A stretch of 47,699 bases of DNA from an uncultured Verrucomicrobiota bacterium (lineage in GTDB: Bacteria; Verrucomicrobiota; Verrucomicrobiia; Limisphaerales; UBA9464): the NCBI GenBank assembly GCA_903842505.1, contig CAIMMI010000140.1, positions 1 to 47,699 on the forward strand, in the 5' to 3' direction. Position 1 is the stretch's first letter, and the number at the start of each line of letters is the position of its first letter. The position numbers were made by a program, and so were the translations under genes. This document shows, in pieces, positions 11,796 through 16,657 of this stretch. The notes beneath the pieces are model-generated. The model saw only the letters and a program-made list of their open reading frames with translations, made no database searches and was not told the origin of the DNA.

Positions 11796-13196
11796 ATGAC
11801 ACAAGACATGTCTGATACCCCCACACCGGGTCCGCGCCGCGGTCTCTGGCGCAAGCGTTATCTGCTCCTCATCCCCATCGGTGCATTCGCGACCCTCTAC
11901 TGGATCAGTTCCCGCTCCAGCGATGGAGTCCTCGACCGACTCCGCGCGCGGGGATACCCGACGACCTCCCTCGAACTGGACCGCTGGTACGTCAGCGTCC
12001 CCTCGGAGCAGAACCTTTCCGGGCCCATCCTGAGGGCAGCGGGCGCCTTCCGGTACCAGGCGCTCGTGGGCTCATCGATTCCCTTCCTGGCCGCGGGTGC
12101 GAACGAGCCGAGCCCCCAGATTCCTGCGCCGGCGGACGAACTCGCCCGATGGAGGCAAGTCATCGAATCGAACGCCGAGACCTGGAGCGCCTTGGCCGAG
12201 GCTCGAACGCGGACCGAGGGCCGTTACCCCATCAACCTGAGCCAGGGGATGAACACGATCCTGAATCACCTCGCCCCCCTCAAGAGCCTGGTTCAGGCCT
12301 GCGCCCTCCGCGCCCTCGTCTGCGCCGAAGAGCAGAAGCCCGCTGAAAGTCTCGAAGCCCTGCGGGACATCTACCTTGTGCGCCGCTCGATCCTTTCAGA
12401 ACCCACCCTGATCTCCACCCTCGTCGGTTTCGCCCTGGACTCCATTGGCACGCGCGCGGTCCGAGACTGCCTCGAACGAACCCGGTTCACCGACGCCCAA
12501 CTTGTCCTCCTGTCCGAAGACCTCCGTTCCATCGCGTCCACCAACTGTTCGGAGCGGGGCTTCGTCGGCGAACTCGCCAACGGCCGCAGCGTTTTCACCG
12601 GCGGCGCCGCCGCGCTGGTCTCGGTCGCTGGCCCGGGCCCTGGCGGGGCTCCATCCGCCGCCAGCCAGTTGGGAGTTGGCGTCCTGCAAGCCTCTGGAAT
12701 CCTCGCCGCGGACGAGTCCTTCTTCCTTCAGAAACTCTCGGCCTTCATCGACGCCACCCGCCAACCTTTTCCCCAGGGGCTCGATGCCGCCGAAACCGCC
12801 GAAGCAGAACTCACGGCCGACCTCGCCAAACCCTCCGGAAAGCTGAAGCTGTTCAGCCGGGTGATGCTCCCCGCCCTCGCCAAGGCCATCGCCAAGGGCG
12901 CCGCGGATCAGGCCAACCTCCGGATGACCCAGACCGCCCTCGCGATCGAACGGTTCCGACTCGCGCACGGACGGACGCCTCCCGACGCGCTGGCCGCACT
13001 GGTCCCCGAGTACTTGCCCGTCGTTCCCACCGATCCCTTCGACGGCAAGCCAATCCGGTATCGCCGGACCGATTCGGGGTACGTGCTGCACTGCATCGGA
13101 TCCGATCGGAAGGACGGCGGCGGTCTTCCGACCGTTGTGGATCAGAAGGGCCGCCCGATCGCGAATCCGGACTTCGTGTTCGAAGTGCGCCGCTGA
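11796..13196 (+). CDS. Membrane-anchored protein with pseudopilin-like C-terminus
   Basis: A 466-residue protein that I cannot name. A basic N-terminus (RRGLWRKR) precedes one membrane helix (about 25-42, YLLLIPIGAFATLYWIS), so most of it should be outside the cytoplasm. The middle is alpha-helical. The C-terminal 75 residues read like the globular end of pseudopilins: ALAIERFRLAHGRTPPDALA, EYLPVVPTDPFDGKPIRYRR and CIGSDRKDGGG (compare 'Y..d.Gg.P.sl..L.p.yl...p.DPw.g.p..Y'). It may belong to a PVC family that borrowed this fold. Start is ATG 11796, with ATG 11808 possible. It is transcribed alone and converges on the HlyD-like gene. Confidence 0.72.
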   Translation: MTQDMSDTPTPGPRRGLWRKRYLLLIPIGAFATLYWISSRSSDGVLDRLRARGYPTTSLELDRWYVSVPSEQNLSGPILRAAGAFRYQALVGSSIPFLAAGANEPSPQIPAPADELARWRQVIESNAETWSALAEARTRTEGRYPINLSQGMNTILNHLAPLKSLVQACALRALVCAEEQKPAESLEALRDIYLVRRSILSEPTLISTLVGFALDSIGTRAVRDCLERTRFTDAQLVLLSEDLRSIASTNCSERGFVGELANGRSVFTGGAAALVSVAGPGPGGAPSAASQLGVGVLQASGILAADESFFLQKLSAFIDATRQPFPQGLDAAETAEAELTADLAKPSGKLKLFSRVMLPALAKAIAKGAADQANLRMTQTALAIERFRLAHGRTPPDALAALVPEYLPVVPTDPFDGKPIRYRRTDSGYVLHCIGSDRKDGGGLPTVVDQKGRPIANPDFVFEVRR

Positions 13197-13211: not shown

Positions 13212-14315
13212 TCAGTTGACCGGCCGGAGATCGACGATCTCACCCGGGATCAGGGTCAGTTCAGGCGGCACGCTGATCATCACCGGCAGGCCGTACTCGG
13301 TCACCGAGTTGCCGGAAGCCCGCAGGGGGAGCAATTCGGGAAGGATGGGTTCCATCTGGCCGCCTACGCTCACGATCTCACCGCGCGCACCGGCTCGGCC
13401 GTAGGAACGGGACCGGATTTCCATGGCCATCCCCACGCGGGGTTCCATCCGGACGGGCTGGCGCAGGTAGGCGATGATCTTCTCCGCGCGGGTGCCGCTG
13501 ATCGTGAGGATCGGCTCGCCCGGCATGACAGCCTCACCCGCTCGACGGTGGACCACGCTGACAAAGCCTGAGATGGGCGAGAGCAGGACCGTCGGATTCA
13601 ACTGCGCCTCGATGGCGTCGATCGCCTTCTGTTCGACGGCCAATGCCGCGCGGATGGAAGCCGGCAATTCATCATCCAGCTTCTTCTCGTCCGGCCCCAG
13701 CTTATCGAGGGCGAGGGAAACCTCGCTGACCAGCACGGTCTGTTCCTGGATCTGTGCCCGGAGTGAATCGAGCTCCCGCTGGGCCAACTGCAACTCCTGA
13801 ACGCTCACGAAGGGAATCCCGTTCGTCACCCGCGACAGCCGGGTCGTTCGGTCGGCCTCGGCCTCGGCATAGGTCAGTTGGGCCTTCGCGGTTGCCAACT
13901 GTACACGGGCCGAGAGCCAATCCAGGCGAAGCTTGGTGAAGTTGATGACGTTGTTCTCGCGGCGGATCTTGGGCTCGACCGTCACCCGCACGAACTCGAG
14001 ACGCGCCCGGGACAACGAGGCCTGAGCCTCGAGATACCTTGGATCCGCGGCGACCAACTCCGCCACCGGTTGACCTGCAGTCACCTGGTCCAGAGCGCTG
14101 ACCTTCAGCACCGTCAATCGCGAGGGCTGCGAGGCGCTGACAATCGTTCGGACCATCTCGACCTCACCCAACAGGGCCGAGGGACCCACATAGCTGCGCC
14201 ACGAATAAACCGTCAGGGCGACCGCACCCAGGAACGCCAGGTAGGGCAAAAAGCCGATGCGGAACTCGCGGAAGGCGGTCCCGGGAGGGCTGGGGATGGG
14301 AGGGAGCTTTTCCAT
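13212..14315 (-). CDS. HlyD-like membrane-fusion adaptor
   Basis: A 367-residue protein with one N-terminal membrane helix (about 22-42) and a periplasmic part. A lipoyl-like half motif (LTVLKVSALDQVTAGQPVAEL) is followed by about 110 residues of coiled coil (71-200), a second lipoyl half (LSPISGFVSVVHRRAGEAVMPGEPIL) and a beta-barrel, the standard order of HlyD/EmrA-type adaptors. No ABC or RND transporter or outer-membrane channel lies nearby. Instead it starts 3 nt after the DUF4956 gene, in the VTC operon, so its partner is probably that membrane protein or an unlinked system. Specific cargo is not predictable. Confidence 0.82.
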   Translation of the reverse strand: MEKLPPIPSPPGTAFREFRIGFLPYLAFLGAVALTVYSWRSYVGPSALLGEVEMVRTIVSASQPSRLTVLKVSALDQVTAGQPVAELVAADPRYLEAQASLSRARLEFVRVTVEPKIRRENNVINFTKLRLDWLSARVQLATAKAQLTYAEAEADRTTRLSRVTNGIPFVSVQELQLAQRELDSLRAQIQEQTVLVSEVSLALDKLGPDEKKLDDELPASIRAALAVEQKAIDAIEAQLNPTVLLSPISGFVSVVHRRAGEAVMPGEPILTISGTRAEKIIAYLRQPVRMEPRVGMAMEIRSRSYGRAGARGEIVSVGGQMEPILPELLPLRASGNSVTEYGLPVMISVPPELTLIPGEIVDLRPVN

Positions 14316-14318
14316 CGA

Positions 14319-15002
14319 TTAAACCTCGGATTCGTCCTCGGCCTTCAGGCTGGTCACCCGGGAAACGCCGGGAAAGGCCTTGAGCTCGGTGATCAATTCA
14401 TCCGTCCGCCCGGCGTCCCGCAGGAGCAAACGGTACGAAACATCGGCCCCGTCATATCCCTGGGCCGAGCGCTGGCTCGCAATCGCAGACCGCCGCGCAT
14501 GACGTTCCAGCAGGAGCTTGAGATCCGGAAGTTCTCCCAGGGGCCGACCCCAGTGCAGGTTCAGGATCAGGTCATACCGGTTCCGGCTGCCGAACTGCGT
14601 GAAATGCAGATACAGCATCACCCCCGCAAACAACCCGGTACCGATCGCCGCCGTACTGAACTTCTTCGTCCCCGCCGCCATTCCAACCGTGATGCTCGCC
14701 AGGATGTAGGCCGTGTCCAGGGTGTCCCTCAGGACGTTCCGGAACCGGACGATGGCGAAAACCGCCATCAGACCGAAGGCGATCAGCACGTTGTTCGCCA
14801 TCACCATCATCACCAGTGCCACGATCAGACACAGCACCAGCAACGAGTTCACAAACGACCGCGAGTAACTGAGGCCGGAGTGGCACACCATGTACACCCA
14901 AGCCACCACGTGCCCGCAAACGAAGGCCAGCATCAGACCCAGCAACATCCCCACGAGATCGTCGGGGGCGGTGCCGAAATCACCTCTCAGGATCCATTCC
15001 AT
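14319..15002 (-). CDS. DUF4956 polytopic membrane protein
   Basis: A 227-residue protein with about five membrane helices in residues 15-135 (LVGMLLGLMLAFVCGHVVAW, SLLVLCLIVALVMMVMANNV, YILASITVGMAAG) and a soluble C-terminal domain resembling an ACT-like fold (YRLLLRDAGRTDELITELKA, then GVSRVTSL). The signature IAFGLMAVFAIVRFRN is typical of DUF4956, a family commonly found beside VTC-domain polyphosphate polymerases, as here. It is 18 nt downstream of the VTC gene and 3 nt upstream of the HlyD-like gene. It may be a membrane partner or channel of the polymerase; that role is inferred from gene linkage. Confidence 0.88.
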   Translation of the reverse strand: MEWILRGDFGTAPDDLVGMLLGLMLAFVCGHVVAWVYMVCHSGLSYSRSFVNSLLVLCLIVALVMMVMANNVLIAFGLMAVFAIVRFRNVLRDTLDTAYILASITVGMAAGTKKFSTAAIGTGLFAGVMLYLHFTQFGSRNRYDLILNLHWGRPLGELPDLKLLLERHARRSAIASQRSAQGYDGADVSYRLLLRDAGRTDELITELKAFPGVSRVTSLKAEDESEV

Positions 15003-15020
15003 TCAGTTCAGTTCTCCAGC

Positions 15021-15863
15021 TCAGACGTTCGAAAGCAGCGCGGTCAATCGGTCCTGCCGTTCGCGCTTGTTGTTCTCCGATGAGGACAGTTCCACGCCTC
15101 GCGGCAACCGGAAACCCGTCCGATGAAAGTACATTTCCCCCTTGTTGGCGATGCCGTCCGCGTACTTGGACGCCGAACCCTGCCGAAGGTTGAAAGTCCG
15201 CACCAGATCCTTGAACCAGTCCGGGAACCGCCCCGTGAACTTCAATTCGAGGATCACCAGCTTACCAAAGACGCACGACGGTTCATCCATCTGCGCCGTG
15301 AATCGCGTCGTGAACTCCGGCGAGATGAACACGTTCCGGTCCATCGTCACCCGCACCGAGTTGTCCACCGGGCTGATCCACGCCTCCCGCTCGTAGGTGA
15401 CGTGCGCCGTCGGCACCGCCTGATCCCGGATCATCAACTCCACAAACCGCTGGATCGCCACCAACTGCCGCGCATCCCCGGAAACCAGATCGTCCGGCCC
15501 CGGATGCTGGCCGCCCAGAACCGACCCCACCGCGTGCCGCTTCACCCCACCCCGCTGCTTCATGATGGCGTCGTTCATCCGACGCTTGATCTCGAAGAAG
15601 ATCGGGACCTTCGGGTTGTCCTCGTAGAACCGGAGCCGCAGCTTGTACCGGTTCTTGTCCCCGTTGATCGTGCCCCAGTAGATCGCCAGATCGTCCGAAT
15701 CGAGGTACAGGTTGTGGATCGTGTAGGACAGGTTCGGCCGACCGGCCCCGTACTCGTCGAGCTCCAGGTACGGCCGGATGTATTCCCGCACCGCCAGTGC
15801 GGTCTCCTCGGGAATCACGTACTTCAGCTCCCAGCGCTGAAGCTGCATCTTGTCGTCGGCCAT
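15021..15863 (-). CDS. VTC-domain polyphosphate polymerase-like protein
   Basis: A 280-residue single-domain protein of the VTC family, the tunnel-fold catalytic domain that makes polyphosphate from ATP in yeast Vtc4. Visible signatures: QRWELKYVIPEE (about 9-20), NLYLDSDDLAIYW (51-63), the basic strand RYKLRLRFYED, FFEIKRR with downstream KQRGG, and a late acidic-basic strand ILELKFTGRFP. These supply the charged lining expected of the tunnel. It is the first gene of a three-gene operon with a DUF4956 membrane protein and a HlyD-like adaptor. Some bacterial VTC/DUF4956 pairs also occur with CotH kinases; none is seen here. Activity is inferred from family. Confidence 0.88.
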   Translation of the reverse strand: MADDKMQLQRWELKYVIPEETALAVREYIRPYLELDEYGAGRPNLSYTIHNLYLDSDDLAIYWGTINGDKNRYKLRLRFYEDNPKVPIFFEIKRRMNDAIMKQRGGVKRHAVGSVLGGQHPGPDDLVSGDARQLVAIQRFVELMIRDQAVPTAHVTYEREAWISPVDNSVRVTMDRNVFISPEFTTRFTAQMDEPSCVFGKLVILELKFTGRFPDWFKDLVRTFNLRQGSASKYADGIANKGEMYFHRTGFRLPRGVELSSSENNKRERQDRLTALLSNV

Positions 15864-16258: not shown

Positions 16259-16657
16259 ATGAAAGCCACTGCATTCCTTCCCTTCCTCGTCGTCGTCACC
16301 GCGGCCGCCTCGCTTTCCGCCGCCGATGTCGACGTCAGCAAGCTGCCCGCGGCCTCCACCAAGACCGGGCTGAGCTTCGACAAGGACATCAAGCCCATCT
16401 TCGACAAGTCGTGCATCAAGTGCCACGGCGCCGAGAAACAGAAGGGCAAGCTCCGCCTCGACACGCTCGAAGCCACCCTCAAGGGCGGCGAGAACGGCGA
16501 GTCCGTCGTGAAGGGCAACTCCGCCAAGAGCACCCTTGTCCACACCATCGCCCGCCTGGACCCCGACGCCGCCATGCCCCCGGACGGCAAGGGCGATCCC
16601 CTCTCCAAGGAACAGATCGGCATCGTCCGCGCCTGGATCGATCAGGGCGCCAAGTAA
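16259..16657 (+). CDS. Small exported cytochrome c
   Basis: A 132-residue monoheme cytochrome. It has a signal peptide (about 1-21, ending SLSAA), then FDKDIKPIFDKSCIKCHGAE with the CxxCH heme site at 52-56, and AMPPDGKG supplying a probable distal methionine. The phrase 'D.DI.PI....C..CHG...G.LRLDT...l..GG..G' is the style of planctomycete/verrucomicrobial cytochromes (PSCyt1-like). It probably transfers electrons in the periplasm. It stands alone: a hairpin 18 nt past the stop separates it from argJ. Confidence 0.9.
   Translation: MKATAFLPFLVVVTAAASLSAADVDVSKLPAASTKTGLSFDKDIKPIFDKSCIKCHGAEKQKGKLRLDTLEATLKGGENGESVVKGNSAKSTLVHTIARLDPDAAMPPDGKGDPLSKEQIGIVRAWIDQGAK

Follow-up and report, generated by a model that had tools for sequence, protein, structure and literature searches.

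What would bring a polymerase-type enzyme of the VTC family, a membrane protein of the DUF4956 family and a HlyD/EmrA-like periplasmic adaptor together in one bacterial operon? The question arises from contig CAIMMI010000140.1 of an uncultured Verrucomicrobiota bacterium (order Limisphaerales), of which we analysed a stretch of 47,699 nucleotides (nt), here called the window. The three genes are minus-strand open reading frames (ORFs) with gaps of 18 nt (VTC/DUF4956) and 3 nt (DUF4956/adaptor). A three-gene operon with these gaps had been proposed in the first-pass annotation of the window, and it is borne out by the ORF coordinates together with Pfam matches to PF09359 for VTC (140.3 bits, cut-off 23), PF16316 for DUF4956 (39.0 bits, cut-off 30.6) and HlyD_3 PF13437 for the adaptor (32.6 bits, cut-off 22.2). 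Genes were called mechanically as the longest ORF after a stop. The genome of the window (5.2 Mb, 362 contigs) has one VTC match and one DUF4956 match. The genes are, with lengths in amino acids (aa):

15021..15863, minus strand: VTC-domain protein, 280 aa (PF09359); soluble, TTM tunnel fold, putative polyphosphate polymerase
14319..15002, minus strand: DUF4956 membrane protein, 227 aa (PF16316); about five membrane helices and a C-terminal ACT-like domain, probably a remote relative of MgtC
13212..14315, minus strand: HlyD/EmrA-like periplasmic adaptor, 367 aa (PF13437); one N-terminal membrane helix

That a polymerase-type enzyme, a membrane protein and a TolC-type adaptor form a conserved unit, joined in many relatives by a channel gene, is well supported. 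Our preferred reading, to which we give an even chance, is that these genes specify the inner half of an export machine that spans the envelope, its cargo being a phosphate polymer made by VTC.

The conservation of the unit was followed in 146 genomes of the order, the same set being used for the DUF4956, adaptor, VTC and PPK1 searches; 107 of them have relatives of DUF4956, 115 of the adaptor and 108 of VTC. Close DUF4956 proteins, defined by at least 46% identity, are encoded by 103 genes in 101 genomes. The adaptor lies directly downstream of 83 of these genes and VTC directly upstream of 91, with both in place at 74. At five others a short adaptor lies upstream of VTC in divergent orientation, 12 genes have VTC without an adaptor inside 3 kb and three have neither, the spacings being those between match ends and not gene ends. 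Three of the 83 adaptors are incomplete (that of G057, cut by a contig end, and those of G138 and G140; G and L numbers are our handles for genomes and loci). Both the gene-level and the genome-level counts take strong adaptor matches plus three pieces, and exclude second pieces of split matches as well as weak generic HlyD matches (about E 1e-10 or weaker, e.g. in G115). At the level of genomes, a close DUF4956 and a strong adaptor occur together in 99, DUF4956 alone in 2, the adaptor alone in 5 and neither in 40 (Fisher p 8e-28). Among the best 80 named loci (317 GTDB genomes encode a relative), profiles assign the exact order VTC-DUF4956-adaptor to 63 and a downstream adaptor to 73; as the closest matches these loci are an uneven sample, and families given here without a Pfam check were assigned by profiles built from these same loci. 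The public labels of the 80 loci indicate Verrucomicrobiota (MAGs of Limisphaerales/Pedosphaera type), with exceptions. Several loci (L193, L205, L226, L236, L262 and others) with DUF4956 proteins 58-93% identical to that of the window carry the public labels Akkermansia muciniphila, Balneolales or Omnitrophota, which may be wrong. The one-contig genome G098 has two DUF4956-adaptor pairs (L083, L084), both without VTC just upstream, and two solitary VTC genes (L085, L086), about 55% identical to that of the window and without an adjoining DUF4956 gene.

Beyond the order, apparently within the Verrucomicrobiota, 287 further genomes hold at least 66 DUF4956 genes in 56 genomes. The neighbourhood count comprises 61 DUF4956 genes in 60 regions; the regions of G305, G401 and G303, each with an adaptor, and of G337:C192 stand outside it. 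VTC adjoins 57 of the 61 genes and an adaptor lies downstream of 27, which is the fairer count, since the alternative of 28 adaptors for 66 genes leans on a selection made up of the top matches plus those lower ones that adjoined a DUF4956 match. At 18 of the 27 adaptor loci the adaptor is followed by a gene for a TolC-type outer-membrane channel of the OEP family. Half of these channel genes score above the Pfam cut-off (L296, L297, L298, L300, L302, L309, L311, L329 and L330), three just under it (L299, L305 and L306), and six were assigned by our own profile (L301, L303, L320, L328, L331 and L304, the last without a Pfam match when tested). At L330 the VTC, DUF4956, adaptor and OEP genes all overlap their neighbours. 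Inside the order, L172 and L257, possibly of one lineage, have the arrangement VTC-DUF4956-adaptor-DUF3616-OEP, and L083 in G098 has DUF4956-adaptor-DUF3616-LTD-OEP, LTD denoting the lamin-tail domain; the LTD tags beside triads come from the profile only. The genome of the window has 17 PF02321 matches in nine ORFs, all unlinked to the operon.

Paralogous adaptors without DUF4956 were found at L070, L100, L103-L106, L108, L110, L114 and L115, in cassettes with DUF3616, often LTD, and OEP. These cassettes put adaptors of the same family in another context, together with lamin-tail proteins. G138 has an ORF of just 103 aa as the adaptor of its triad (L116), and a full adaptor-DUF3616-OEP cassette lies elsewhere in the genome (L115).

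The adaptor has the build expected of a tripartite system. Its AlphaFold2 model (pLDDT 87.0) combines a barrel-sandwich domain, a beta-barrel and a long hairpin formed by helices 92-112, 119-162, 172-214 and 219-239. The top Foldseek match is EmrA of EmrAB-TolC (E 1.5e-15), and in the VIA list HlyD, MacA and EmrA are tied within 1 Z unit. The best NCBIfam match, EmrA/EmrK (TIGR00998), reaches 40.9 bits, far under the cut-off of 390.8, which leaves the protein outside that subfamily. In phmmer EmrA (E 0.05) came behind the ESCRT protein CHMP1B (E 0.003), the best match, which we took as coiled-coil similarity and set aside. Two parts of the adaptor gene are of particular interest:

14286..14297, minus strand: codons of the IPSP motif (residues 7-10), in the predicted tail, probably on the cytosolic side
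13599..14042, minus strand: alpha-helical hairpin (residues 92-239) of the AlphaFold2 model, with the tip R156...L160...S171 at 13803-13850

The IPxP pattern is kept near the N-terminus in all 40 aligned adaptors, which we chose from the best 80 named loci and which include two without a hairpin. Over the 38 that bear a hairpin, the tip has R in 36 and L in 27. R-x3-L-x6-S is the TolC-docking motif at the hairpin tip of such adaptors, and the tip seen here bears a partial resemblance to it: in the window R156 and L160 are followed by S171 after a longer tip than in that motif. Hairpin-less adaptors of about 240-260 aa, matching residues 1-93 and 240-365 of the window protein, occur in G037, G081, G026, G126, G105, G145, G077 and G030, and at L092, L093, L122, L232 and L237 adaptors of this short form lie divergently upstream of VTC. 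No adaptor relatives were found in viral contigs.

The VTC protein aligns weakly with the yeast Vtc4 chains (best E 0.0013), and 19 of its columns are invariant over 26 relatives, CotH-linked ones included. The invariant residues include R76, R78, E91, K93, Y157, R159, R171, D175, E206, K208 and K233. Of these, R76, R78, R159 and R171 align with Vtc4 R264, R266, R361 and R373 (numbering counted from the alignment with a 3-residue tag offset), and we take R361 and R373 to be basic tunnel or metal-site residues. E206 pairs with Vtc4 E426 solely in a further, negatively scoring stretch of the alignment, yet it is invariant as well. In the available passages of the yeast study R264, R266 and E426 are named, and R264A/R266A/E426N is an impaired form (PMC9911596). 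A Kyte-Doolittle scan of the VTC protein found no hydrophobic segment. From its sequence we regard the protein as a putative polyphosphate polymerase.

For DUF4956 the evidence comes in two parts. The AlphaFold2 model (pLDDT 77.5, pTM 0.59) has five predicted membrane helices within residues 16-135 and an ACT-like domain at about 143-220. The C-terminal part gives Foldseek and VIA matches to ACT-like and ferredoxin-like domains, among them the C-terminal domain of MgtC (2lqj), ranked ninth by Foldseek (E 5e-3). The membrane part has no Foldseek match at E <=0.001, the VIA rows cover residues 139-227 only, and a sequence search of the PDB gave no match up to E 10. Profile comparison by hhalign pairs DUF4956 with four MgtC proteins at probabilities of 96.0-96.4 over 182-188 columns; the controls, the adaptor and the VTC family, neither of them a polytopic membrane protein, gave 0.5 and 0.2. 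The MgtC family PF02308 matches a distant DUF4956 relative (L342) with E 5e-4 and 22.6 bits, below the cut-off of 31.4, and gives no match for the DUF4956 of the window at E 0.01. Taken together, these comparisons point to remote homology with MgtC. DUF4956 resembles the MgtC/SapB family (PF02308) in having membrane helices followed by an ACT-like domain and in the profile similarity, but it differs in its sub-threshold score, its operon partners and an invariant RFR motif. Only four columns are invariant over 18 diverse DUF4956 proteins, corresponding to Y37, R86, F87 and R88 in the window. Two weak partial matches to DUF4956 on plasmids come from Nonomuraea and Planococcus. The motif maps to:

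14739..14747, minus strand: codons of the invariant RFR motif (R86-F87-R88) of the 18-protein alignment, at the end of predicted helix 3

How might these parts work together? In the export machine that we favour, VTC would be a tunnel enzyme of the cytosol and would turn ATP into a phosphate polymer, most likely polyphosphate. DUF4956 would hold the enzyme at the membrane and take the nascent chain across, doing in trans what in the VTC complex of yeast falls to the membrane helices. It would stand in the usual place of an MFS, ABC or RND pump, with the polymerase doing the pushing. The EmrA-like adaptor may be anchored beside DUF4956, perhaps through the invariant IPxP motif, and would extend the path through the periplasm as far as an outer-membrane channel of TolC type. 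Many relatives have a gene for such a channel adjacent to the unit; in the genome of the window the channel would be one of the unlinked OEPs. Polymerase activity, polyphosphate as the substrate, complex formation, a DUF4956 conduit and an outward direction are all things that we infer. The first-pass annotation had likewise pictured a polymer made at the membrane and moved or anchored outside it. It had staked this on the adaptor staying beside VTC and DUF4956, as it does in the order, and on the key basic tunnel residues of VTC, which are intact and invariant in the 26 relatives. With these and the TolC-type gene in relatives the architectural part of its proposal stands, whereas substrate and direction are still presumptive. 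Its suggestion that DUF4956 is the channel is plausible as regards a conduit, but the protein is probably a remote relative of MgtC and a conduit role is conjectural. MgtC is not known as an established transporter.

The working analogy for this machine is the yeast VTC complex, which couples polyphosphate synthesis to membrane transit according to the available passages of PMC9911596. The yeast complex (Vtc1/Vtc3/Vtc4) and the operon share a VTC tunnel domain with catalytic residues and a membrane partner at the enzyme. In contrast to yeast, the VTC domain is the only one found in the enzyme here, which has no membrane helix, and in relatives the unit is extended by the adaptor and a channel of the outer membrane. 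DUF4956, which provides the membrane part, is MgtC-like and presumably not of the Vtc1 fold. With EmrAB-TolC and MacAB-TolC the unit has in common the adaptor fold, the long hairpin and, in relatives, a TolC-type partner gene; unlike those systems, it is conserved without an MFS or ABC pump and has DUF4956 and a cytosolic VTC enzyme as partners.

Several observations weigh against an export machine. No OEP gene was found in the window, 9 of the 27 adaptor loci outside the order lack one, and 30 of the 57 VTC-DUF4956 pairs there lack an adaptor. Because these 30 pairs lie mostly beside CotH kinases or a porin, the adaptor is better seen as one of several envelope partners than as a fixed core part. 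Within the order, nine of the 103 close DUF4956 genes have the adaptor downstream without VTC just upstream, and the more distant DUF4956 genes (at least 47, among the matches listed) include none with an adaptor and 10 with VTC just upstream. The exact R-x3-L-x6-S spacing occurs in just 13 of the 38 hairpin-bearing adaptors (14 with L212). Some adaptors of the order (2 of the 40 aligned, more in the order search) lack the hairpin, and therefore would be unable to extend to a TolC-type channel as such adaptors normally do. Confidence in the DUF4956 model is only moderate, and MgtC, the nearest named family of this protein, acts on ATP synthase and phosphate uptake in the available passages of PMC6658541 and PMC12345266, which do not present it as a transporter. 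Finally, PPK1 is present in 112 of the 146 order genomes, including that of the window, independently of a close DUF4956 (p 0.53). Its independent presence means that polyphosphate as such does not require VTC, and makes a specialised, located polymer pool likelier than general storage. VTC as a replacement for PPK1 was rejected, as the two show no association in these genomes.

The partners that take the place of the adaptor lead to the first alternative. In six loci from six genomes of the class of the window (L313, L314, L343, L344, L346 and L347), a Porin_O_P gene (PF07396, 'phosphate-selective porin O and P'), in each case above the Pfam cut-off, directly follows VTC-DUF4956 in place of the adaptor. 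By profile, a CotH kinase gene lies within 1.5 kb of 27 of the 61 DUF4956 genes outside the order, often with lamin-tail domains; Pfam confirms 19 of these, and eight are by profile only (L293, L323 for its first gene, L349, L351, L353, L354, L356 and L358). In L300, L301 and L329 a CotH-LTD protein follows the OEP gene. The module may thus serve the modification of surface proteins or exopolysaccharide, VTC-DUF4956 delivering a phosphoryl compound, polyphosphate or shorter, to secreted CotH kinases. The product would be a phosphorylated surface protein or matrix, and the adaptor with OEP, or the porin, would be accessory. In a set of 39 order genomes, CotH is present in each of the 28 that have DUF4956, and none of the six without CotH has DUF4956 (p 1.4e-4), although this is weak evidence in view of how common CotH is in these genomes (0-45 matches each). 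The genome of the window has 17 CotH matches, yet none was found in the window itself. Moreover, only 3 of 26 loci with an adaptor have a CotH gene within 2 kb, as compared with 24 of 35 without an adaptor; the number of adaptors is 26 here and 27 above through differing distance rules, with L328 counted differently.

Published loci also bear on surface modification. In the passages available, cotH, a poly-phosphate polymerase, DUF4956 and DUF4832 are accessory genes of Gram-positive pel clusters (PMC7112168), and a locus of Clostridium perfringens has VTC genes close to one for CotH (PMC2879425). Streptococcus intermedius has the trio SIR_1592 (MgtC plus ACT), SIR_1593 (polyphosphate polymerase) and SIR_1594 (CotH) in its pel locus; without SIR_1592 or SIR_1594, Pel and aggregation are reduced, a role in phosphate metabolism is suggested, and the trio is described as not found beyond pel loci (PMC12345266, available passages). 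SIR_1592 is probably a DUF4956 protein. The Gram-positive pel accessory genes thus share with our loci the VTC-DUF4956 pair with CotH, and the MgtC/ACT nature of one member had already been noted. They differ in their monoderm hosts and their tie to Pel, and the available passages mention neither an adaptor nor an outer channel. With regard to PMC12345266, we find CotH-VTC-DUF4956 loci in the present phylum, where pel genes were not searched for. Overall we consider surface modification unlikely as the main function.

A bolder view joins these outer partners to export. VTC-DUF4956 would be a polymerase-translocon that spins out polyphosphate across the inner membrane during its synthesis, in this phylum with an adaptor and TolC-type channel, a phosphate-type porin or a secreted CotH kinase as interchangeable outer modules. 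The exported polymer would be both surface material and an ATP-independent phosphoryl donor for CotH. We regard this as quite improbable.

The kinship with MgtC suggests a second alternative, in which the operon regulates phosphate homeostasis. DUF4956 would act on ATP synthase or phosphate signalling, VTC would sense or store phosphate at the membrane, and the adaptor would merely tie the complex to the cell wall or to an existing pump. The short adaptors without a hairpin speak for this view. By contrast, the OEP gene linked at two thirds of the adaptor loci outside the order and the long hairpin kept in 38 of the 40 aligned adaptors, a chosen set, argue against it, and we consider the explanation very doubtful.

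Doubtful to a similar degree is an ordinary pump for efflux or for polysaccharide export, with a cargo that has nothing to do with polyphosphate, the VTC-fold protein being a triphosphate-binding regulator or hydrolase. EmrA-like and OEP partners are typical of efflux, TTM-fold enzymes catalyse diverse reactions (PMC4641920, available passages) and VTC-DUF4956 has been reported from pel clusters (PMC7112168). However, gene clustering of 40 regions places no pump gene among the recurrent neighbours, the recurrent membrane partner being DUF4956, and the residues aligned to Vtc4 R264, R266, R361, R373 and E426 are invariant. A chance or merely local gene order, for which the non-conserved flanks of the triad might speak, is extremely improbable and was rejected, as gene order and orientation recur across the order and in other classes of the phylum, over many families.

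The same clustering of 40 regions found no conserved wider operon around the triad, the flanks varying between genomes. Where identified, the flanking genes in the window are unrelated. They include, given separately as neighbours of the operon:

11856-13196, plus strand: 446-aa protein, convergent to the adaptor gene, its start chosen within a 721-aa ORF; Pfam and NCBIfam gave nothing at E 0.01
16259-16657, plus strand: small cytochrome c of the planctomycete type (PF07635), oriented divergently to the operon

The VTC-DUF4956-CotH association is already known from Gram-positive pel clusters, as far as the available passages go. For the VTC-adaptor-TolC arrangement we recognised no paper in the open PMC literature, which was covered mostly by listing and takes in neither preprints nor most subscription journals. 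There is a real chance that tripartite export combined with VTC-type synthesis, as in the export machine proposed here, is a new class. The compact four-gene cassette of polymerase-type enzyme, membrane component, adaptor and outer channel is directly testable in a laboratory host. If VTC-DUF4956 were indeed a polymerase-translocon with interchangeable outer modules, it would represent a tripartite exporter of a new, polymerase-driven class, and phosphorylation outside the cytoplasm would have a new source of energy. For the family DUF4956 the analysis provides partners and a probable relationship in fold, and it connects secreted CotH kinases with a possible phosphate supply. More generally, the unit bears on how bacteria may place polyphosphate outside the cell and on what bacterial VTC proteins may do alongside PPK1.

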